64,000 nt of DNA, from assembly GCF_039634785.1 (NCBI RefSeq), contig NZ_JBBIAB010000003.1:263724-327723 (forward strand), in the 5' to 3' direction. The stretch's first letter is position 1; each line of letters begins with the position of its first letter. Under the pieces are notes generated by a model. That model did no database searches and had not been told where the DNA came from. It saw only the letters and a program-made list of their open reading frames with translations. A program made the position numbers and the translations under genes. Positions 4,449 to 41,724 of this stretch are shown piece after piece. This DNA comes from Tistrella mobilis. GTDB lineage: Bacteria > Pseudomonadota > Alphaproteobacteria > Tistrellales > Tistrellaceae.

Positions 4449-4961
4449 CGCTTCCCCATCTTTTTCTGGTTGCGATCCAACATCATGCGTCGACGACCCG
4501 GGTGCCGCGGCGTCCGGCGGGGGCCTTGGGCGGTCACCTTCGGCAACCGGCCGGCCCGGATCCGACCACCGCGAGCCGTCGTTCCGGAGCAGGAAAGCCC
4601 TGCGCCATCTCTCCCGCGCGGGCCGCCTGTCCCGGCCTCCCCGGGCTCGGGCTGGGGCCATTATGCACGGCTGAGCGCGGAACCAGAAGCGGGGAAACTC
4701 GCCTTACGCCTGATAGGAAAGCCATGCAGATCGCGCACGGGTCTGGTGCCATGCAGAAGCTGCATTGTTGCAGTGCGAAATGGACCCCTCCCGAAACCGA
4801 TCGATCAGGCGTATCTCTAGCTCATCGAAACGACACGATGCGCCGCCGCAGCTCAGGCGCCCCGACCGAGCCCCCCAAGCACGCAGCCCTGAAAGACCTT
4901 CAGGATGCGACCGGTCGAGCGGCCCGGCAGCGAAGACGGCGCAGCCCCTAGGAGACCTGTC
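4449..4961. other. Divergent intergenic region, 513 bases
   Basis: This stretch separates the minus-strand binding-protein gene from the plus-strand DUF1127 gene and should carry both promoters. No convincing sigma-70 or stress-sigma promoter was found. Two small structures are visible: a 10-bp inverted repeat, TACGCCTGAT at 4705-4714 with its complement at 4804-4813, and a 6-bp hairpin at 4888-4904 (CCTGAA/TTCAGG). Open frames here lack family resemblance and I do not call them genes. Confidence 0.5.
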
Positions 4962-5165
4962 ATGACCGCCTTCATCCCTGGCGTCATCTCGCTGAAGAAC
5001 GTTGTTGCCCGGATGATCCGGTGGCGCCTGGAGCGTCGGACCTATGCCGAGCTGAAGTCCCTCGACGACCGCATGCTGGCCGATATCGGCATCTCGCGCG
5101 GCGAGATCCGCTCGGTCGCGACCCATGGTCGCCAGGGTCACGAGGTTGCCGGCTACGGCGTGTGA
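4962..5165 (+). CDS. DUF1127 small basic protein (CcaF1-like)
   Basis: A 67-residue protein whose C-terminal half is a DUF1127 domain: RWRLERRTYAELKSLDDRML, then LADIGISRGEIRS. The start has GGAGA at 4951-4955, six bases upstream. DUF1127 proteins are abundant in alphaproteobacteria; the Rhodobacter sphaeroides member CcaF1 is an RNA-binding protein made from the same transcript as the CcsR small RNAs that follow it. Here too the gene is followed at once by a hairpin at 5176-5195 and then by an array of C-rich hairpins ending in an intrinsic terminator at 5529-5565. That shared layout is the main reason to think the function is similar. Confidence 0.88.
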   Translation: MTAFIPGVISLKNVVARMIRWRLERRTYAELKSLDDRMLADIGISRGEIRSVATHGRQGHEVAGYGV

Positions 5166-5175
5166 TCCAGCGAGC

Positions 5176-5528
5176 CCGGCTGTGGATATAGCCGGAGATC
5201 GCGCCTGAAACAAGCTTCGCATCTGGAACCGTCCTCCCCCGGATCCCGATGCGATAACTGAAGCGTTTCCCCCGCTTCAGCCTGCCCGGGCCGCTGCCGC
5301 CCTCCCTCGGCAACCGGCCCGACCCCAGCCCGGCGTCTGCTGCGCCTCCGCCTGCCCTCCCTCAGGCCCGAGTGCTGCGCGACGCCGACGGGACCGGTCG
5401 TTCCCCACTTGCGACCTGCCCCGCGATGCCTTGACGACGGTCCGGCCGCCCTCCCTCGGCCCCACCGTCCGCCCCTCTCCCCAAGGGGCCGCATCGCCGG
5501 GCCGCAAGACGGACCGGTCACCGCATCA
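5176..5528 (+). ncRNA. Hairpin array with anti-Shine-Dalgarno loops, CcsR/cuckoo-like sRNAs
   Basis: At least five stem-loops expose pyrimidine loops that could pair with ribosome-binding sites. They are: 5218-5253 (double stem, loop TCCTCCCC); 5258-5280 (8-bp stem, loop TTTCCCC); 5287-5321 (7+5 bp stem, loop CCCTCCCT); 5350-5367 (5-bp stem, loop CCCTCCCT); and 5436-5469 (6+5 bp stem, loop CCCTCCCT). A further 6-bp hairpin at 5471-5489 has loop CTCCCCA, and a plain hairpin lies at 5176-5195. The array follows a DUF1127 gene and stops at an intrinsic terminator. In Rhodobacter, CcsR RNAs have CCUCCUCCC loops and follow a DUF1127 gene on one transcript. Assignment to that family is inference from layout and loop sequence; exact RNA ends are unknown. 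Confidence 0.7.
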
Positions 5529-5565
5529 CGGCCCCGACGCTTCCCCCGTCGGGGCCGTTTTTTTT
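5529..5565 (+). terminator. Strong Rho-independent terminator
   Basis: A perfect 11-bp stem (CGGCCCCGACG and its complement) with an 8-base loop CTTCCCCC is followed directly by eight T residues. It is the strongest intrinsic terminator in the window and lies 363 bases past the DUF1127 stop, so it must end a transcript carrying the hairpin array. Its loop is itself C-rich like the others. Confidence 0.92.
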
Positions 5566-5705
5566 GCCCGCCCTTCCCCTCCTCTCCTCGCTTTCCGCAT
5601 CCCTGCCGATGGAACCCGATCGCCGCCCCTGAGGTTGGCATGTCACGGGATCCGTGTCGTTCCTGCGGCCGGCCCGTTGAGTGCACTTCAGGGATGGAGA
5701 GGGAC

Positions 5706-8489
5706 GTGTCGCGCCCGACGGACATCTCGCGCCGGGATTTTCTGCGCGCCGCCGCCGCTGCGGGGGTGACCGCATCGGTCATGCCGCTGGGCCAGGCCCT
5801 GGGGGCGATGATCCCCGAACGCAGCACCCGCCCGCCCGACTGGCTGGACGAGTCGGGGCGCATCCGCTTTCGCCATGACGGCATCCGCAAGGTGACCGGC
5901 GACAAGGTGTTCGCGGTCGACATCCGCGCCCGGGACATGCCCGGCTGGCCCAAGACCCAGGCCCATGCCTTCCTGCTGCGCGCAACCCAGGCCGACCGGG
6001 TGTTCGAGGGTGTCGACCTGTCGATGCTGCCGCCCGAACTTGCGCCCGACCGGCTGGTCACCGCGACCGAGCTTGCGGCCGACGGCGTGGCCATGCCCGA
6101 ACCCGATTTCTATGGCGACCTGCTGCTCAGATCCGGAGAGATACCGCCTCTGCTGGGCCAGCCGGTGGCGCTGCTGATCTATCACGACTATCCGCGCTTC
6201 CGCCGGGCGAAGCAGCTGCTGCAGTTCAACCAGGATGCCATCCGCTATGGCCGGGAGACGGGGGTGCAGGCCCGACCGCCCTATGGTCGCGCGCGCTTCG
6301 TGCGCATCGGCGGGGCCACCCCCTTCGCCCCCGACATCTATTCCCCCATGACCGGCACGGTGCTGCGCCCGCCCGCCGACAGCAACGACTGGCCGGCGGC
6401 CGATGCAGAGGGGGATGCGGCGGCGCGCGCCATGCATGCCGCAGAAGAGATCGCCCGCAGCCTGGAGAGCGCCGACCACGATCTTGCGGTCTTCCGGCGG
6501 GAATATCATTCGCCCTATGTCGACCCGGCGGCGCTGGAACCCGACAACGGCAATGCCTGGTACGACCCGGCCGCGGGGCGCCTGCATCTGGTGACCGGCA
6601 CCCAGTCGCCCTATACCAACGCCACCCATGTGATCGCCATGGTCCGGGCCAGCCGGTTCCGGCTGGACGAACTGCGCTTCAATGCCGGCTACACCGTCGG
6701 CTACGGCCAGAAGGAACATCATTCCCTGCCCTATTACGCGGCCATGGCCGCGCTTTACGCCGATGGCCGGCCGGTGCGGCTGGCGCTGAACCGGTGGGAG
6801 CATTTCCAGACCGCGATCAAGCGCCACCCCTTCCGGATCGATGCGGCGATCGCGGTCGACCGCCGGACGGGGCAGTTCCATACGCTGCGCATGGATCTGC
6901 TGGGCGATGGCGGCGGGCGGATGAATTTCAGCCCCTCGGTGGGCGAGGTCGCGGCAAGTGCGGCGCAGTCGATCTACTATTTTCCGCAAAGCGACCTGTC
7001 GGTGCGGGTGGAGGCGTCGCGCGCCCCGACCGCCGGGTCGATGCGCGGCTATGGCACGCTGCAATCGATGAGCGCGACCGAGATGCTGGTCGACGAGATC
7101 GCAGACGAGCTGGGGCTGGACGCCATCGAACTGCGCCGGCGCAACCTGCTGACCGCGGGCATGAAGAACACCCAGGGCGCCGTGCCGGCCGGGCTGCTCA
7201 GGGCAGGCGAACTGCTGGAGGCCGCCGCCCGCCACCCGCTCTGGACCGAACGGCACGAGCGCAAGCGGCTGCACGACCAGGACCATCCCGGTCATCACTA
7301 CGGGGTGGGCTTCGCCGCGGTGCAGAAGGATTACGGCACCGGCGCCGAGGCGGCGATCGCCCGGGTGGCGCTGGGCGCCGACGGCCATATCCATCTTCGC
7401 CATGTCTGCAACGAGATCGGCAACGGGTCGACCTCGTCGCAGATGCTGGTGGTGGCGGACTGGCTGGGCCGGCCGGCCCATGATGCCGAATTTGCGGTGA
7501 CCGACTGGCCGGAACTGCCGCTTACCTCGAATGACGAGCCCTATACCATGTCGCAGGCGGCGCAGGATCAGGCGGCGCGCGATCCCCATTGGGTACCGCG
7601 GATCACCTCGCCGCGCAGCGCCTCCAACTCGGCCTATTACCTGTCGCATGCAACGCGGGAGGCGGCGCGGATCCTGTTCGAACGCGGGCTGTGGCCGGCG
7701 GCGCTGTCGATCTGGCGCGAGGGCATCGGCGGCGGCCAGGCGGCCCCGCTCGCGATCCGGCGCGAGGAGGCGGTCTGGCGCGACGGGTTGCTGGTCGCGG
7801 CCTCGCTGGAGCCGCTGCCGCTGGCCAGGCTGGCGGCCCGCGCCCATCAGATGGGGCTGGTGACCGGCGTCGTGGTCCATACCTTCAACCGCTGGTCCTG
7901 GACCGAGGCGGAGTTCGAGCTGGAGGACGGCACCCACCGCTGGCCGATCGATGCGCTGGCGCTACGCCGGGGCGATGGCGGCTATGACTTCCAGCCCCGC
8001 CGGCGGGTCTTCTACCCGCCCGTCCAGCGCAACAATGCCGCCGTGGTCTATTACGCGCCGGTCGCAACCCTGGTCGAGCTGTCGGTGAACGGGGGTTCGG
8101 GCGAGGTCCGGCTGCTGTCGCACCACTCGTGGATGGAATGCGGCAACATGATCGTGCCCGAGCTGGTCTCGGGCCAGCTGCAGGGCGGCATCGCCATGGG
8201 CATCGGCCATGCCCTGTTCGAGGAATTGCCGCTGTATGAGGACGGGCCGGGCAACGGTACCTGGAACTTCAACCGCTACCGCCTGCCACGTGCATCGGAT
8301 GTCGCGGTCTGGTCGCAGACCGGCCAGGTGCTGCCGCCGCTTTCGCCCACCGATCCGCCCAAGGGCATCGCCGAGGTGACCATGATCCCGATCGTGGCGG
8401 CGCTCGCCAACGGCATCGCCCATGCGATCGGCCACCGCTTCCGCGACCTGCCGATCCGCCCCGAAAAGATCAGGGAGGTGCTGCTGTGA
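5706..8489 (+). CDS. Molybdopterin-binding subunit of an exported xanthine/aldehyde oxidase family enzyme
   Basis: This is the large subunit of a molybdenum hydroxylase. It begins with a Tat export signal (SRRDFLRAAAAAG) and continues with the xanthine dehydrogenase family Mo-binding domains, including the GSMRGYGTLQSM segment and a C-terminal KGIAEVTMIP segment. I start at GTG 5706 because GGAG lies six bases upstream; ATG at 5694 or 5640 (GAGG five bases upstream) are in-frame alternatives. It overlaps the 2Fe-2S subunit by four bases, and a tri-haem cytochrome c follows, so electrons probably pass Mo centre, 2Fe-2S, haem. No FAD subunit is encoded. Similar trios oxidise aldehydes, isoquinoline or nicotinate; the substrate here is unknown. 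Confidence 0.87.
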   Translation: MSRPTDISRRDFLRAAAAAGVTASVMPLGQALGAMIPERSTRPPDWLDESGRIRFRHDGIRKVTGDKVFAVDIRARDMPGWPKTQAHAFLLRATQADRVFEGVDLSMLPPELAPDRLVTATELAADGVAMPEPDFYGDLLLRSGEIPPLLGQPVALLIYHDYPRFRRAKQLLQFNQDAIRYGRETGVQARPPYGRARFVRIGGATPFAPDIYSPMTGTVLRPPADSNDWPAADAEGDAAARAMHAAEEIARSLESADHDLAVFRREYHSPYVDPAALEPDNGNAWYDPAAGRLHLVTGTQSPYTNATHVIAMVRASRFRLDELRFNAGYTVGYGQKEHHSLPYYAAMAALYADGRPVRLALNRWEHFQTAIKRHPFRIDAAIAVDRRTGQFHTLRMDLLGDGGGRMNFSPSVGEVAASAAQSIYYFPQSDLSVRVEASRAPTAGSMRGYGTLQSMSATEMLVDEIADELGLDAIELRRRNLLTAGMKNTQGAVPAGLLRAGELLEAAARHPLWTERHERKRLHDQDHPGHHYGVGFAAVQKDYGTGAEAAIARVALGADGHIHLRHVCNEIGNGSTSSQMLVVADWLGRPAHDAEFAVTDWPELPLTSNDEPYTMSQAAQDQAARDPHWVPRITSPRSASNSAYYLSHATREAARILFERGLWPAALSIWREGIGGGQAAPLAIRREEAVWRDGLLVAASLEPLPLARLAARAHQMGLVTGVVVHTFNRWSWTEAEFELEDGTHRWPIDALALRRGDGGYDFQPRRRVFYPPVQRNNAAVVYYAPVATLVELSVNGGSGEVRLLSHHSWMECGNMIVPELVSGQLQGGIAMGIGHALFEELPLYEDGPGNGTWNFNRYRLPRASDVAVWSQTGQVLPPLSPTDPPKGIAEVTMIPIVAALANGIAHAIGHRFRDLPIRPEKIREVLL

Positions 8490-9058
8490 TCCCCGCCACC
8501 AGATCGGTGCGGCTGACCGTCAACGGCCGGGATACCGGCCCGGTCGAGGTGCCCGAAGACCTGATGCTGCTTGAATTCCTGCAGGAATATCTGAACCTGA
8601 CCGGCACGCGCTATGGCTGTGGTCAAGGGGTCTGCCGTGCCTGCACCGTGATCCTGGACCGCCCCGACGGCCGGTCGCGGGCGGTGCCCAGCTGCGTGAC
8701 CGGCGTCGCCCATCTGGATGGGGCGCGGGTCCGCACCGTCGAAGGCCATGCCAGGCGGAACGAGGATGGCAGCCTGGCGCTTTCCGCCATCCAGCAGGCC
8801 TATCTGACCCATTTCTCCTTCCAGTGCAGCTATTGCACCCCGGGTTTCGTCAACGGCGCGACCGTGCTGATCGAACGCCTGGCCCGCGAGCCGGTGCCGC
8901 GCCGGGATGTGGAGCGCGTGGTGCTGGAAGGCATGGACCGGCATATCTGCCGCTGCACCGGTTATGTCCGCTATCTGGCCGCGGTGCGCGACGTGATCCT
9001 GTCGACGCCGGGTCTGACCACCGACCGGCCGGCGAGCAAACGGGATGACGGATCATGA
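8486..9058 (+). CDS. 2Fe-2S subunit of the molybdenum hydroxylase
   Basis: A 190-residue protein with the two 2Fe-2S clusters of this family. The plant-type ferredoxin cluster is at Cys45, Cys50 and Cys53 (YGCGQGVCRACT) plus a later cysteine in PSCVTG. The second helical domain carries CSYCTPGF and CRCTGY. It starts with GTG at 8486, overlapping the Mo subunit stop as GTGA, with GGGAGG at 8473-8478. It passes electrons from the Mo centre to the cytochrome encoded next. No export signal is seen; such subunits are usually carried out with the Tat-bearing partner. Confidence 0.93.
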   Translation: MIPATRSVRLTVNGRDTGPVEVPEDLMLLEFLQEYLNLTGTRYGCGQGVCRACTVILDRPDGRSRAVPSCVTGVAHLDGARVRTVEGHARRNEDGSLALSAIQQAYLTHFSFQCSYCTPGFVNGATVLIERLAREPVPRRDVERVVLEGMDRHICRCTGYVRYLAAVRDVILSTPGLTTDRPASKRDDGS

Positions 9059-10335
9059 GGCGGCGGCTGATTCTGGGGGCGCTTGCCCTGGTCGTTGTCG
9101 TGGTCGTAGCAGTGGTGGCGGTGCCGCTGCTGACCGGCGCCGGGCCGATCCCACCTGCGACGGTGGACCTGGCCCGGCTGGATGCGGGCCAGCGCACCCG
9201 GCTGGTGGAAAGAGGCCGCTACATCGCCCGTGCCGCCGACTGCGCCGCCTGCCATGTGGCCGAGGATGGCCGCGCCTATGCCGGCGGGCTGCCGATGGAA
9301 ACCCCGGTCGGCACGATCTACGGCACCAATATCACGCCCTCGCACGATCACGGCATCGGCGGCTGGAGCGCGGACGATCTCTATCGGGCGCTGGTCTACG
9401 GCATTCTCCCCGATGGCGGCCGGCTGTATCCGGCCATGCCCTATACGTCCTATCACGCCATGACCCGGGCGGATGTGGATGCGCTCTCGGCCTATCTCGC
9501 CAGCCTGCCGGCGGTGGAGAAGCCGAACCGGCCGCCGGATCTGGCCTTCCCCTTCAACATCCGGCCGGCGATCGCCTTCTGGAACCTGGTCTTCCGGCCC
9601 GAGCCGGGTGATCTGCCCCCGCCTGCAGGCAGTGCCGCGCCGGCCGGCGATCACGCCCGCGGCCGCTATCTGGTCGAGGTGCTGGGCCATTGCGGCGAAT
9701 GCCATACCCCCCGCAACCTGGCTTATGCGATGGAAGACGACCGGCATCTTCAGGGCGAGGTGATCGAAGGTGCGCTCGCCCCCGACATCACCCCGGCCGG
9801 CCTCTCGGCCCGCGGCTGGACGGCGGAAGATCTGACCGGTTTCCTGTCGACCGGCCTTTCGCCCCAGGGGACGATGACTTTCCGGATGTATCCGGTGCTC
9901 CACCATTCCACCCGCTATCTGACGGCAGAGGATGTGGGGGCGATCGCCGCCTATCTGACCGAGGGGGCCCCGCCCCCGACACGGCCCGAACCGGTCACGA
10001 CCGGCCATACGCAGAACCCCGGCCACGACATCTATCTGGGCTTCTGCGCCGGCTGCCACGGGGCCGATGGCGAAGGCCACCCCGCCGCCTCGCCGCCGCT
10101 TGCCAGCAACACCACCGCCATGCTGCAGGACCCGCGCAATCTGGTGAAGGTGATCCGCGACGGCATTCCGGCCCGCCCGCTCGCCGGCACCGGCCGGATG
10201 CAGGAAATGCCGGCCTTCGGCGACCTGCTCGACGACGGCGAGATGGCGGCGCTGGTCAACTATCTGCGCCGCCGCTGGGGCGGACAGCCCGGCGACGTCA
10301 CCGCAGAGCGGGTGGCGGAGGTGGGGCCGCGCTGA
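9055..10335 (+). CDS. Tri-haem membrane-anchored cytochrome c
   Basis: A 426-residue protein with an N-terminal membrane anchor (about residues 4-27) and three CxxCH haem sites: CAACH at 63-67, CGECH at 213-217 and CAGCH at 331-335. This three-domain arrangement is that of cytochrome subunits of membrane-bound alcohol, gluconate and aldehyde dehydrogenases. It overlaps the 2Fe-2S subunit by four bases (ATGA), so it is very likely the electron acceptor of that enzyme, delivering electrons to the quinone pool or a terminal oxidase from the periplasmic side. Confidence 0.93.
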   Translation: MRRRLILGALALVVVVVVAVVAVPLLTGAGPIPPATVDLARLDAGQRTRLVERGRYIARAADCAACHVAEDGRAYAGGLPMETPVGTIYGTNITPSHDHGIGGWSADDLYRALVYGILPDGGRLYPAMPYTSYHAMTRADVDALSAYLASLPAVEKPNRPPDLAFPFNIRPAIAFWNLVFRPEPGDLPPPAGSAAPAGDHARGRYLVEVLGHCGECHTPRNLAYAMEDDRHLQGEVIEGALAPDITPAGLSARGWTAEDLTGFLSTGLSPQGTMTFRMYPVLHHSTRYLTAEDVGAIAAYLTEGAPPPTRPEPVTTGHTQNPGHDIYLGFCAGCHGADGEGHPAASPPLASNTTAMLQDPRNLVKVIRDGIPARPLAGTGRMQEMPAFGDLLDDGEMAALVNYLRRRWGGQPGDVTAERVAEVGPR

Positions 10336-10362
10336 GCGGCCCTGCCTCAGGCTCCATCCGTC

Positions 10363-12164
10363 TCAGGCATAAAGCCCTTCGATGACATCCGTGTACTTCC
10401 TGTACACATTGCTGCGCCGGATCTTCATGGTCGCCGTCACTTCGTCGTCGTCATGGTCCAGTTCCTTGGTCAGCAGATGGAAGCGACGGATCTGCGACAC
10501 CGGGGCGAGGCCGGCATTGGCGCGGGCGATTTCGGCCTCGATCAGGGCCCGGACCTTGGGGTTTTCGGCTAGCGAGCGGAAGGTGGTATAGGCGATGCCC
10601 TGCTCTTCCGCCCAGCGCGCGACGGTGTCGTAATCGATCTGGATCAGGGCGGCGACGTATTTGCGCCGGTCGCCGATCACCACGCATTCCTTGACATAGG
10701 GGCTGGATTTGGCAGCGTTCTCGATCTCGGTCGGCGACAGATTCTTGCCGCCGGCGGTGATCATGATGTCCTTGATCCGGTCGACGATGCGGATATGGCC
10801 GTCGACCTCTTCCCCGACATCGCCGGTGTGCAGCCAGCCGTCGCGGATGGTGTCGCGGGTCGCGGCCTCGTTCTTGTAATAGCCGGCAAAGACCGAGCCG
10901 CCCCGCACCAGGATTTCGCCGGTGGCGGGGTCGAGCTTTACCTCCACCCCCTCGACGGCGGTGCCGACCATGCCAGGGCGCGCATCCTCGGGCGCCTGAC
11001 CGATGGCCACGCCCGAGGTCTCGGTCTGGCCATAGGCCTCGACCAGCGGCACGCCGATGGTGCGGAAGAAGCGCAGGATCTCAGGCGAGATCGGGGCCGC
11101 GCCGGTGATGGCGACATGCGCCCGGCGCAGGCCGATGAAGTTCTGCAGCGCCCGGAACACCAGCAGATACCAGAGCCCGAAGCGCAGCCGCTGGGCCATC
11201 GTCCAGTCGCGGCGCGGCTTCCAGGCAAGCGGCGTGCAATCGCGGACCGCCCGGTCGAACAGCGCCTTCCGCCAGCCGCCGGTCTCGGCCATCTTGATAT
11301 GGATCGCGGCGTGCAGCTTTTCCCAGATCCGCGGCACGCCCATGAAGAAGCTGGGCGCCACCTCGCGCAGATCCGACTGCACCGTGCGCAGGCTTTCGCC
11401 GAACGAGATCCGGCTGCCCAGATAGAGCGGTGCGAAATTGGTCATCGCCTGTTCGGCGACATGGCAGAGCGGCAGATAGCTGAGGCTGGAGGCCTCGCCG
11501 TCCAGATGCAGCCGCGCGACCAGCCCGGGCACGACATGGGTGATGTTGCGATAGGTGATCACGGCACCTTTGGGCTTTCCGGTCGAGCCCGAGGTGTAGA
11601 TCATGAGCGCGGTGTCATCGAGCGTCTGGGCATCGAGCAGCGCATCGGCCCGGCCGGGATCGGCGGCATGGTGTTCGGCGCCCAGCCGTTCCACCTCGTC
11701 GAAGGGGATCAGGTCGGGCTCGTCATAGCCGCGCAGGCCGCGCATGTCGACGACCACGATCCGGCGCAGTCGCGGCAGCTCCGCCCGCCGTTCCAGCACC
11801 TTGTCGGCCTGTTCCTGATCTTCGACCACCACCACGTCGACATCGGCATGGGCGAGCACATAGGCCACCTCCCCCGCCGGGCTGGTCGGATAGACGCCGA
11901 CGGTGACCGCACCGATGATGCCGGTGCCCAGCTGGGCGATCACCCATTCGGCGCGGTTTTCGGACAGCACGCCGACATGGCCGCCGGCGCCCACCCCCAG
12001 CACCTCCAGCCCCAGGCCGAAGGCGCGGGCGCGCGCGAAATAGCCGGCCCAGGTGATCGGCTGCCAGATGCCGTAATCCTTCTGGCGGATCGCGAGCCGG
12101 TCGCCCTGCCGGCGGGCATGCTCGCGCAGCATCTGGGGCATGGTCAGGGTCGGAATCGCCATGG

Positions 12165-12168
<4 letters not shown>
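10363..12168 (-). CDS. AMP-binding long-chain acyl-CoA ligase, last gene of the liv operon
   Basis: An acyl-CoA synthetase of about 600 residues in the ANL superfamily. The ATP/AMP motif is IYTSGSTGKPKGAV, the adenylate motif VEAYGQTETSG, then GWLHTGDVGE and the hinge RIKDIMITAGGKNLSP. It forms an acyl-CoA from a free acid, ATP and CoA. The ATG at 12168 overlaps the stop of the upstream ATPase gene as ATGA; a GTG at 12177 is an alternative. Its place at the end of a full branched-chain type ABC operon suggests the transporter imports an acid that this enzyme activates on entry. The chain length of the substrate is not clear. Confidence 0.92.
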
Positions 12169-12992
<824 letters not shown>

Positions 12993-39933: not shown

Positions 39934-41724
39934 TCAGAACTCGTCGTCGGCCATCGCCATCACGGTCTTCGCCCCGGCCATGGCCACCGCGAAGGCGGCC
40001 AGATGCTCTGGCAGCACCTGCTCCATGAAGAAGCGGGCGGTCTTGAGCTTGCGCTGGTGGAAGTCGACATCCTCGCCGGCGGAGATCTTCACGGTTGCCA
40101 CCTCGGCCATCTTCGCCCACATGAAGGCGAGCGCGACCAGCGCGAACATGCGCAGATAGGGCGAGGCCGCAGCCCCCGCCTCGTCGGGATTGGCCATGGC
40201 CTTCTGCGCCAGACCGGCCGTCGCCTGCTGCAGGCGCTGGAAGGCCTTTGCGAAGGGGCCGATGAACTCCTTCAGCGCCGGATCCGACTTCTTCGCCGCG
40301 ATATAGGCATCGGCCGGATGGAAGAAGCGGCGCAGCAGCCGGCCCATCCCGGCCGAGAGCTTGCGGCCGACCAGATCCATGGCCTGGATGCCGTTGGTGC
40401 CCTCGTAAAGCTGGGTGATGCGGGCGTCGCGGACATACTGTTCCATGCCATGCTCACGGATGTAGCCGTGGCCGCCATAGATCTGCACGCCGCGATTGGC
40501 GTTGTCGAAGCCGAGGTCCGTGAGGAAGGCCTTGATGATCGGGGTCATCAGCTGGACCAGATCATCCGCCTCCTGCCGCACCGCCGGATCGGGGTGGTGA
40601 TGCGACACGTCGATCTCGGTGCCGATCCAGTAGGACAGCGCCCGCGCGCCCTCGTTCAGCGCGCGCATGGTCATCAGGTTCCGGCGGACATCCGGATGAA
40701 CCACGATCGGGTCGGCCGACCGGTCCGGATATTTGGTGCCGGTCAGCGCCCGGCCGGCGGTGCGGTCCAGCGCATAGGCGACCGCGCCCTGATAGGCCGC
40801 CTCGCCGATGCCCAGCCCCTGCATGCCGACGGCAAGCCGCGCGACATTCATCATGGTGAACATCGCCTGCAGGCCGCGATGGGGCTCCCCCACCATCCAG
40901 CCGATCGCGTCGTCGAAGTTGAGCACGCAGGTCGCCGAGGCCTTGATGCCCATCTTGTGCTCGATGGCGCCGCAGGCGACGCCATTGCGCTCCGCCGGTG
41001 CACCATTGGCGTCGGGGATGAATTTCGGCACCAGGAACAGGCTGATGCCGCGGGTGCCTTCGGGCGCATCCGGCAGCTTGGCCAGCACCAGATGGATGAT
41101 GTTCTCGGTCAGATCGTGCTCGCCGGCCGAGATGAAGATCTTGGTACCGGTGATGCGGAAGCTGCCGTCGTCGGCCGGCACCGCCCTGGTGCGGATCAGC
41201 CCCAGATCGGTGCCGCAATGCGGCTCGGTCAGGCACATGGTGCCCGACCAGGTGCCGTCGGAGAGCTTGGGCAGATAGCGCGCCTTCAGCTCGTCCGAGG
41301 CATGGGCGGCGATGGCGTTGTAGGCGCCGGCCGACAGGCCCGGATACATGCCGAAGGCGAGGTTGGCCGAGCAGATCATCTCCTCGACCACGAAGTTCAG
41401 CGTCTTGGGCAGACCCTGCCCGCCATATTCGGGATGGGTGGCAAGCGCCGTCCAGCCACCTTCGATGAAGGTCGCATAGGCTTCCTTGAAGCCACGGGGC
41501 GTGCGCACCACGCCGTTCTCGAAGGTGCAGCCTTCCTCGTCGCCCGGGCGGTTGAGCGGGAACAGCTCGTTCTCGCACATCTTCGCCGCCTCTTCGAGCA
41601 CGGCATCGAAGATGTCGGGGGTGGCGTCCTCGTAACCCGGCAGGTTGGAAATCCGCGAGACGTCGAGCACGTCATGCAGCACGAAGCGGATGTCGCGCAG
41701 CGGTGCCTTGTAGGTTGCGGCCAT
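39934..41724 (-). CDS. Acyl-CoA dehydrogenase, long (596-residue) type
   Basis: A flavin-dependent acyl-CoA dehydrogenase paralogous to the one at 18808-20604. Motifs include MCLTEPHCGTDLGLIRTRA, ITGTKIFISAGEHDLTENI and the active site LYEGTNGIQAMDLVGRK. It is the last gene of the unit MerR - thiolase - hydratase/dehydrogenase - dehydrogenase, and makes the first double bond in beta-oxidation of acyl-CoA. It starts 25 bases after the preceding gene with GGAG upstream. Confidence 0.94.
   Translation of the reverse strand: MAATYKAPLRDIRFVLHDVLDVSRISNLPGYEDATPDIFDAVLEEAAKMCENELFPLNRPGDEEGCTFENGVVRTPRGFKEAYATFIEGGWTALATHPEYGGQGLPKTLNFVVEEMICSANLAFGMYPGLSAGAYNAIAAHASDELKARYLPKLSDGTWSGTMCLTEPHCGTDLGLIRTRAVPADDGSFRITGTKIFISAGEHDLTENIIHLVLAKLPDAPEGTRGISLFLVPKFIPDANGAPAERNGVACGAIEHKMGIKASATCVLNFDDAIGWMVGEPHRGLQAMFTMMNVARLAVGMQGLGIGEAAYQGAVAYALDRTAGRALTGTKYPDRSADPIVVHPDVRRNLMTMRALNEGARALSYWIGTEIDVSHHHPDPAVRQEADDLVQLMTPIIKAFLTDLGFDNANRGVQIYGGHGYIREHGMEQYVRDARITQLYEGTNGIQAMDLVGRKLSAGMGRLLRRFFHPADAYIAAKKSDPALKEFIGPFAKAFQRLQQATAGLAQKAMANPDEAGAAASPYLRMFALVALAFMWAKMAEVATVKISAGEDVDFHQRKLKTARFFMEQVLPEHLAAFAVAMAGAKTVMAMADDEF

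Follow-up and report, generated by a model that had tools for sequence, protein, structure and literature searches.

Organization of the locus

The window, i.e., the whole 64-kb stretch of Tistrella mobilis DNA analysed here, carries a DUF1127 gene that is preceded by a predicted LsrB/VtlR-type box and followed by a series of hairpins ending in an intrinsic terminator (Table 1). The 67-residue gene named in a preliminary description of this DNA is confirmed by its Pfam match. A structured stretch begins immediately 3' of the DUF1127 stop codon on the same strand. The 5'UTR fold has a z-score of -1.0, i.e., structure was not found there, and a sigma-70 scan of the locus did not find a promoter.

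Table 1. Features of the DUF1127 locus and its hairpin array, given in window positions.
Feature	Positions	Strand	Basis
Extended LsrB/VtlR-type box ATGCA-N6-GCAT-N3-TG-N3-T, sequence ATGCAGAAGCTGCATTGTTGCAGT (predicted)	4751-4774	+	published box and weight matrix
Tentative -10-like element GTATCT	4811-4816	+	spacing to the LsrB/VtlR box only
Shine-Dalgarno AGGAGA ahead of the DUF1127 gene	4950-4955	+	sequence inspection
DUF1127 gene, 67 aa (9 R, 2 K, 7 D+E)	4962-5165	+	PF06568, E 6.1e-16; composition
H0, 5' hairpin of the 3'UTR, not of anti-Shine-Dalgarno type	5170-5202	+	fold
H1, hairpin, loop TCCTCCCC (5232-5239)	5217-5254	+	fold, unpaired probability
H2, hairpin, loop TTTCCCC (5266-5272), 8-bp stem	5258-5280	+	fold, unpaired probability
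H3, double-stem hairpin, loop CCCTCCCT (5300-5307)	5287-5321	+	fold, unpaired probability, inner-pair test
H4, long hairpin, loop CCCTCCCT (5355-5362)	5331-5387 (outer limits approximate)	+	fold, unpaired probability, inner-pair test
H5, possible hairpin, candidate loop TTCCCCACTTG (5401-5411), competes with an outer helix	5396-5416	+	
H6, double-stem hairpin, loop CCCTCCCT (5449-5456)	5436-5469	+	fold, unpaired probability, inner-pair test
H7, hairpin, loop CTCCCCA (5477-5483)	5471-5489	+	fold, unpaired probability
Intrinsic terminator, loop CTTCCCC (5540-5546), eight Ts (5558-5565)	5528-5565	+	

The DUF1127 protein is identical (100%) in T. mobilis KA081020-065 (locus L031), whose plasmid pTM3 matches the window's locus with 98.9% identity over 870 bases, and 97% identical in a sister species (genome G001). 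In our comparison set, Tistrella's order is represented by three genomes of this single genus (G000, which holds the window; G058, also T. mobilis; and G001), and a plasmid search for further relatives returned Tistrella and one 55-base Sinorhizobium match only.

An Hfq gene is present in the Tistrella genome. Only two DUF1127 matches in G000 exceed the Pfam cut-off, and for the second (contig C9) we found neither a downstream anti-Shine-Dalgarno (aSD) loop nor a box. The question of whether RNA or proteins are the target of DUF1127 proteins has been called a puzzle (PMC12501420), and a genome with two such matches makes it simple to address. The portion of that source used here gives RNA binding as demonstrated for the DUF1127 protein CcaF1 and evidence for YjiS as not found.

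Fold and exposed loops of the array

The fold of positions 5160-5570 has an energy of -211 kcal/mol (z-score -9.46), which is equalled by none of 100 shuffles. Its MFE structure displays seven aSD-type loops, each with CCTCC, CTCCC or TCCCC, and their mean unpaired probabilities are 0.99-1.00. For the eighth candidate, H5, the value is 0.55; this hairpin forms in span-limited folds of the sister-species locus (L002) and of two further T. mobilis loci (L031, L122) and is absent in the window's own locus (L001). CCUCC or CCUCCC is present in 4/7 robust loops, and the remaining ones hold CUCCC or UUCCCC.

The preliminary description had reported at least six stem-loops with pyrimidine loops, double stems that keep pairing while their arms differ, and an 11-bp terminator stem with eight Ts, and it depended on a stable fold at the array. 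The fold, with its seven exposed loops, is indeed there, and the stem-loops are confirmed as described, with a further loop (CTTCCCC) capping the terminator stem. The eight Ts are present as well; the stem, however, has 12 bp (5528-5539 paired with 5547-5558). A plus-strand terminator scan places sites only at 5528-5558 and none between the hairpins. The statement on double stems is right for the three CCCUCCCU hairpins, where 3/5 inner pairs differ on both sides and all 15 cells are paired, given three rows only; an equally good result is obtained in 22/500 column shuffles.

As a background model, we used 500 dinucleotide shuffles of positions 5166-5565, for which 0/1/2/3/4 aSD loops were observed in 230/199/57/13/1 cases. 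Within the window itself, more than two such loops are found solely in the array segment when 320 segments of 400 nt from both strands are compared. The preliminary observation of a hairpin array is thereby confirmed.

Conservation between Tistrella genomes

Positions 5257-5565 are 99.0% identical to the sister species G001 (three changes in 309), compared to a baseline of 94.0% over 24,324 aligned bases of the syntenic region of the window; this baseline leaves out one 922-base match of 71% at 40354, taken as a paralog. Among 2,279 overlapping 309-nt segments, 4 reach the identity of the array: one starts at 5251 and lies on the array itself, and the other three are found at 12011-12031. The latter cover 12011-12339, the 5' end of an acyl-CoA-synthetase-like gene (assigned by eye), which is conserved like the array (99.0-99.4%).

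Around the array, the identity to G001 is 89% for the neighbouring substrate-binding-protein gene, 95% for the DUF1127 gene, 97.7% for the 5' region (4701-4961) and 86% for the H0 stretch (5166-5215). Since the H0 stretch sits at 86% within the same block, mere recent recombination is argued against. The identity stops exactly at the last T of the terminator and G001 resumes at position 10363. The intervening 4.8 kb (5566-10362), present in T. mobilis and absent from G001, contain molybdopterin oxidase and 2Fe-2S genes (Pfam) as well as a cytochrome-like gene (by eye).

All eight candidate loop sequences are invariant in the window, L031 and G001. The changes between genomes within 5257-5565 fall into unpaired columns, except for a single broken pair (5413-5503). 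As to covariation, which the preliminary description had proposed as a check, a single compensatory change is seen: H0 pair 5181-5190 changes from T-A to C-G between species. Five pairs in total are broken in one genome each, among them two in H0 (G001) and two in H1 (one in L031, one in G001), and the array itself hardly varies; the divergence is too small for covariation between species to be judged. The conservation, together with changes confined mostly to unpaired columns, makes it most likely that selection acts on the array RNA.

Relation to CcsR-type and other anti-Shine-Dalgarno RNAs

We scored aSD loops in the 500 bases downstream of DUF1127 genes (132 loci examined, 131 scored). Respective counts of 0/1/2/4/7/8 loops are found in 87/27/11/1/1/4 loci. 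The window's own locus (L001) shows seven; eight are found for L031, L122, L002 and a CcsR-type locus in genome G023. Upstream control stretches have no loop in 116 and one loop in 10 cases, and reverse-strand controls none in 123 and one in 8. By this census, the Tistrella array is among the richest and not above the CcsR type, so that the larger loop number credited to it beforehand does not hold.

G023 and G242, two genomes of one family, served as positive controls. They were selected via CCTCCTCCC pairs 18-48 bases apart, which occur in 14/241 genomes of the class vs. 10 with the reversed control. Such a match is thus meaningful only by context, and we used only those beside DUF1127 genes. 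In G023, three motif-pair matches with 110-base spacing follow directly after the DUF1127 gene; the folded array has eight aSD loops (seven TCTCCTCCTCCCT, one ATCTCCTCCCTC). In G242, the same measure gives six aSD loops after the DUF1127 gene. In G000, the one match of this type lies in a tandem repeat on contig C1, outside the array locus. Searching the genome for further CCTCCC pairs in clusters, we obtained 27 matches vs. 30 for the reversed control, i.e., a second array was not found in this way.

The best reading of the Tistrella locus is a divergent CIN1/CcsR-type locus, i.e., a DUF1127 protein combined with an aSD RNA derived from its 3'UTR. With CcaF1-CcsR1-4 of R. sphaeroides and CIN1 it shares a short DUF1127 gene, a 3'UTR RNA and a terminator, as far as these are described in the parts of the sources considered (PMC10253847, PMC8625941), and with the G023 locus a hairpin array with exposed aSD-type loops. 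Loop length is 7-8 nt in Tistrella (CCCUCCCU, UCCUCCCC and alike), whereas the loops of G023 span 12-13 nt and those of G242 8-14 nt. In Tistrella, short inner stems sit on outer stems; the stems of G023 are mostly uninterrupted and 11 bp long. The A+T fraction of the linkers is 0.46 in Tistrella and 0.48 in G001, in contrast to 0.64 and 0.67 in the CcsR-type arrays of G023 and G242; given these less A/T-rich linkers, cutting by RNase E into single sRNAs appears doubtful. Concerning RpoHI/RpoHII patterns upstream, we found no TTG...CTAT-type site and one TTG-N-CCCC candidate at 4768, using consensus patterns that also miss the G242 locus.

The loop motif CCUCCUCCC, called ultraconserved in the alpha-r14 family in the consulted part of PMC10746234 and likewise given for SmelA075 and SmelA099 (PMC3927594), is present in none of the 8 loops of the Tistrella array. 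We therefore do not claim cuckoo/CcsR membership by loop. The likeness proposed beforehand stands for how the system is built (gene order, 3' position, shared terminator, aSD loops, conservation) and fails for strict membership; the loops are in fact slightly different, as had been noted, being CCCUCCCU and similar and never CCUCCUCCC. Several aSD-loop hairpins with diverging stems are also shared with alpha-r14 (NfeR1) and SmelA075/SmelA099 (PMC10746234, PMC3927594). These have CCUCCUCCC loops, and the portions of the two sources used here do not mention a DUF1127 gene, in contrast to the 3'UTR array with other loops in Tistrella.

A position outside Rhodobacter, presented as a novelty in the preliminary description, is none, because DUF1127 genes with CcsR-like sRNAs (CIN1 locus) are already described as frequent in alphaproteobacteria in the passages considered (PMC10253847). 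What Tistrella would add is an isolated lineage with the CcsR/CIN1 design, in which the loops violate the rule of an 'ultraconserved' CCUCCUCCC. The array thus lends itself to tests of which loop portion is important. Our literature searches found nothing on a Tistrella small RNA, and novelty is judged within such searches.

A family assignment via Rfam, also suggested beforehand, did not materialize: the sole match with E<=1 within 4500-6500 is Hrs10 on the other strand, which we attribute to chance (19.1 bits vs. a gathering threshold of 108). The gathering threshold is likewise reached in none of L002 and the CcsR-type loci L008 and L155. Since the arrays of known type in G023 and G242 go unrecognised, Rfam is uninformative either way.

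An LsrB/VtlR-type box upstream of DUF1127 genes

VtlR/LsrB of Rhizobiales is reported to activate sRNAs as well as small proteins, among which are three DUF1127 proteins in Brucella (PMC7486931, PMC12595884), via a proposed box GCAT-N3-TG-N3-T; for this box, the part of PMC7486931 used here speaks of confirmation in B. abortus and of a hypothesis in A. tumefaciens. This published pattern is found at 4762-4774, inside an extended box that all three Tistrella genomes carry and that the preliminary description had overlooked. The short pattern has 10 matches in the window and the extended pattern one (4751-4774).

Across the class, and searching either strand, the published pattern is found within 400 bases upstream of 32/121 non-redundant DUF1127 loci, compared to 5/121 in the next 400 bases upstream and 4/121 downstream. 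Many of these matches have ATGC[AG] six bases ahead of GCAT. The palindromes AAACATTCG (18/121) and TCACTTATC (10/121) are also enriched in the 400 bases upstream of DUF1127 loci and absent from 242 control stretches; these patterns were picked after seeing the sequences, such that their counts are weaker than that of the published box.

For scoring, a weight matrix was built on 26 sites at DUF1127 loci outside Tistrella. When the training sites are left out in turn, 6/26 score below 6 and are probably chance matches. The Tistrella box scores 25.6, with 11/26 left-out training sites scoring higher. Within the window, the next-best site scores 9.7; the best scores in a 360-kb genome sample and an 8.5-kb trxB-lsrB stretch are 10.2 and 11.9, respectively. 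The box is by far the top site in the 424 kb scanned. At the CcsR-type loci, the matrix gives 38.6 for G242 and 18.3 for G023. Exact matches of ATGCR-N6-GCAT-N3-TG-N3-T number 3 in G000, 2 in G058 and 2 in G001 (controls 0 each), as well as 6 in G242 (control 0) and 2 in G023 (control 1). The CcsR-type locus is one of the six in G242 and neither of the two in G023. Across 127 DUF1127 loci, the extended box shows no significant association with loop number (Fisher P 0.63, 0.29 and 0.14 for >=1, >=2 and >=4 loops), and we thus take it to mark DUF1127 genes rather than arrays.

Positions 4751-4774 are likely an LsrB binding site, as predicted from the pattern and its score. In S. meliloti, activation of the sRNA NfeR1, which belongs to alpha-r14 and has three aSD loops, strictly requires LsrB, with binding at -72 to -57, according to the part of PMC10746234 considered. 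By analogy with this distance, the DUF1127 transcript may start near 4815-4835. The box and the DUF1127 small proteins agree with the LsrB/VtlR regulon as described for Agrobacterium, Brucella and Sinorhizobium (PMC7486931, PMC12595884, both in part); Tistrella differs in standing in another order, represented here by this genus only, and in having an LsrB-like protein without cysteine.

In our searches, literature linking any two of LsrB, CcsR and anti-Shine-Dalgarno was limited to S. meliloti, with CcsR in none of it. With the box preceding the Tistrella array, the CcsR-type array of G242 and other DUF1127 genes, work on sRNAs and DUF1127 genes controlled by LsrB/VtlR in Rhizobiales can be linked to that on the CcsR RNAs of Rhodobacter; together they give a single testable model for how anti-Shine-Dalgarno RNAs may be switched on in alphaproteobacteria.

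The LsrB-like protein and a second box

A gene for an LsrB-like LysR protein lies directly after trxB in Tistrella (L216 4914-5804, G000:C22), an adjacency also described for lsrB/vtlR in the consulted parts of PMC7486931 and PMC11975290. Among PDB entries, the protein matches 9HH1 best (316 bits; next 120), which is A. tumefaciens LsrB (PMC11975290). Within NCBIfam, none of the best 25 of 55 models matched reaches its cut-off. The protein contains zero cysteines. In the text considered (PMC11975290), LsrB is described as a redox switch that works via thiols, and its occurrence as restricted to Rhizobiales; lacking cysteine, the Tistrella protein cannot use the thiol switch in the same way. 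As a putative LsrB gene, the Tistrella gene argues against such a restriction.

Two exact extended boxes are common to all three Tistrella genomes, i.e., the DUF1127 one and a second at G000:C22 20491-20514, which lies 4.7 kb past the lsrB-like gene. Downstream of this second box is a stand-alone RNA stretch (about L259 1570-1742) with serial C/U-loop hairpins and a terminator (z-score -6.1). This CUCCC-hairpin RNA is nearly invariant between species. All six Rfam matches with E<=0.1 for it stay below the gathering threshold, led by SorX (40 bits vs. 46.6) and suhB/MmgR (34.5 bits vs. 41).

We tentatively put forward, as a conceivable though somewhat doubtful extension, that a cysteine-less LsrB ortholog might command a small regulon consisting mainly of the two pyrimidine-loop arrays, with the DUF1127 array acting unprocessed and multivalently, in contrast to Rhodobacter, where the RNA is split into individual sRNAs. 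If so, LsrB would be an old, class-wide switch for anti-Shine-Dalgarno RNAs.

Pairing with ribosome binding sites

The tail of the Tistrella 16S rRNA is GGATCACCTCCTTT. We sampled the ribosome binding sites (RBSs) of 187 genes; an earlier filter that left 38 genes was discarded. GGAG is found at 64 of the 187 starts compared to 5 control positions and GGGAGG at 10 compared to 0, with GGAGG enriched as well. Given the 16S tail and these enriched words, the loops can pair with Tistrella RBSs. The RBS preference of CCCUCCCU over the same 187 genes is 2.41 kcal/mol, which is a null result with regard to the permuted (2.87) and reversed (2.47) loop, and the longer Rhodobacter-type loop fits the sampled RBSs better than the Tistrella loops.

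In each of the three genomes, the pattern AGGGAGGG-N3-9-ATG outnumbers its reversed control (G000 19/4, G058 20/7, G001 15/3), an excess that any Shine-Dalgarno-like word would likewise show. Among 13 loci inspected, we found no convincing shared theme for the genes behind AGGGAGGG-ATG; by eye, one start belongs to a substrate-binding-protein-like and one to an ABC-ATPase-like gene.

Proposed mechanism and alternatives

The explanation that we favour, and hold to be reasonably probable, is a divergent CIN1/CcsR-type operon under LsrB-like control whose aSD loops act on mRNAs; here, we infer transcription, processing, pairing and regulator binding. A single transcript would carry the DUF1127 gene and the 3'UTR RNA, probably activated by the LsrB-like regulator via the box at 4751-4774, a site predicted by sequence at which binding is presumed. 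Its products would be a small arginine-rich DUF1127 protein and an RNA with at least six robust pyrimidine-loop hairpins plus the terminator loop. The exposed C/U loops may pair with the G-rich Shine-Dalgarno regions of several mRNAs, which would lower their translation or stability, and Hfq and the DUF1127 protein might aid maturation or turnover, by analogy with Rhodobacter.

Alternatively, and in our view rather unlikely, the loops could act mainly as a sponge that binds and titrates the DUF1127 protein or a different C/U-binding protein, or in autoregulation of the mRNA that carries them, with pairing to other mRNAs being secondary. The gene for an arginine-rich small protein lies on the same strand, and CcaF1 is reported to bind RNA and to take part in CcsR maturation (PMC10253847, in part). 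In addition, the loops depart from CCUCCUCCC yet are nearly C/U-only, and their RBS fit is no better than that of a permuted or reversed loop. Set against this, the loop cores (CCUCC/CCUCCC in four of seven; CUCCC, UUCCCC) complement words enriched at Tistrella starts, and mRNAs are the predicted targets of the NfeR1/alpha-r14 aSD loops in the part of PMC10746234 considered.

It is improbable that the role of the hairpins is limited to transcription termination and to protection of the DUF1127 mRNA against 3'-5' decay. The very stable fold and the strong terminator would suit such a passive 3'UTR, but stability by itself does not call for seven pyrimidine loops (500 shuffles give no more than 4) or for 99% identity including all loops, and aSD-loop arrays follow DUF1127 genes in other families too. 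A hidden coding or DNA-level element, such as an unannotated ORF or a recombination site, is a very improbable source of the conservation: while the G001 identity edge lies exactly at 5565, beside the 4.8 kb missing there, and a 76-aa minus-strand ORF (5277-5507) lies entirely within the conserved stretch, the changes in 5257-5565 sit in unpaired columns save one broken pair, and ORFs crossing 5565 extend into DNA that G001 does not share.

Elsewhere in the window, an RlaP RNA-repair gene (1725-2600; PF10127, E 3.1e-67) lies beside a sigma-54-activator-like gene (83-1690) that appears RtcR-like by eye from its translation.
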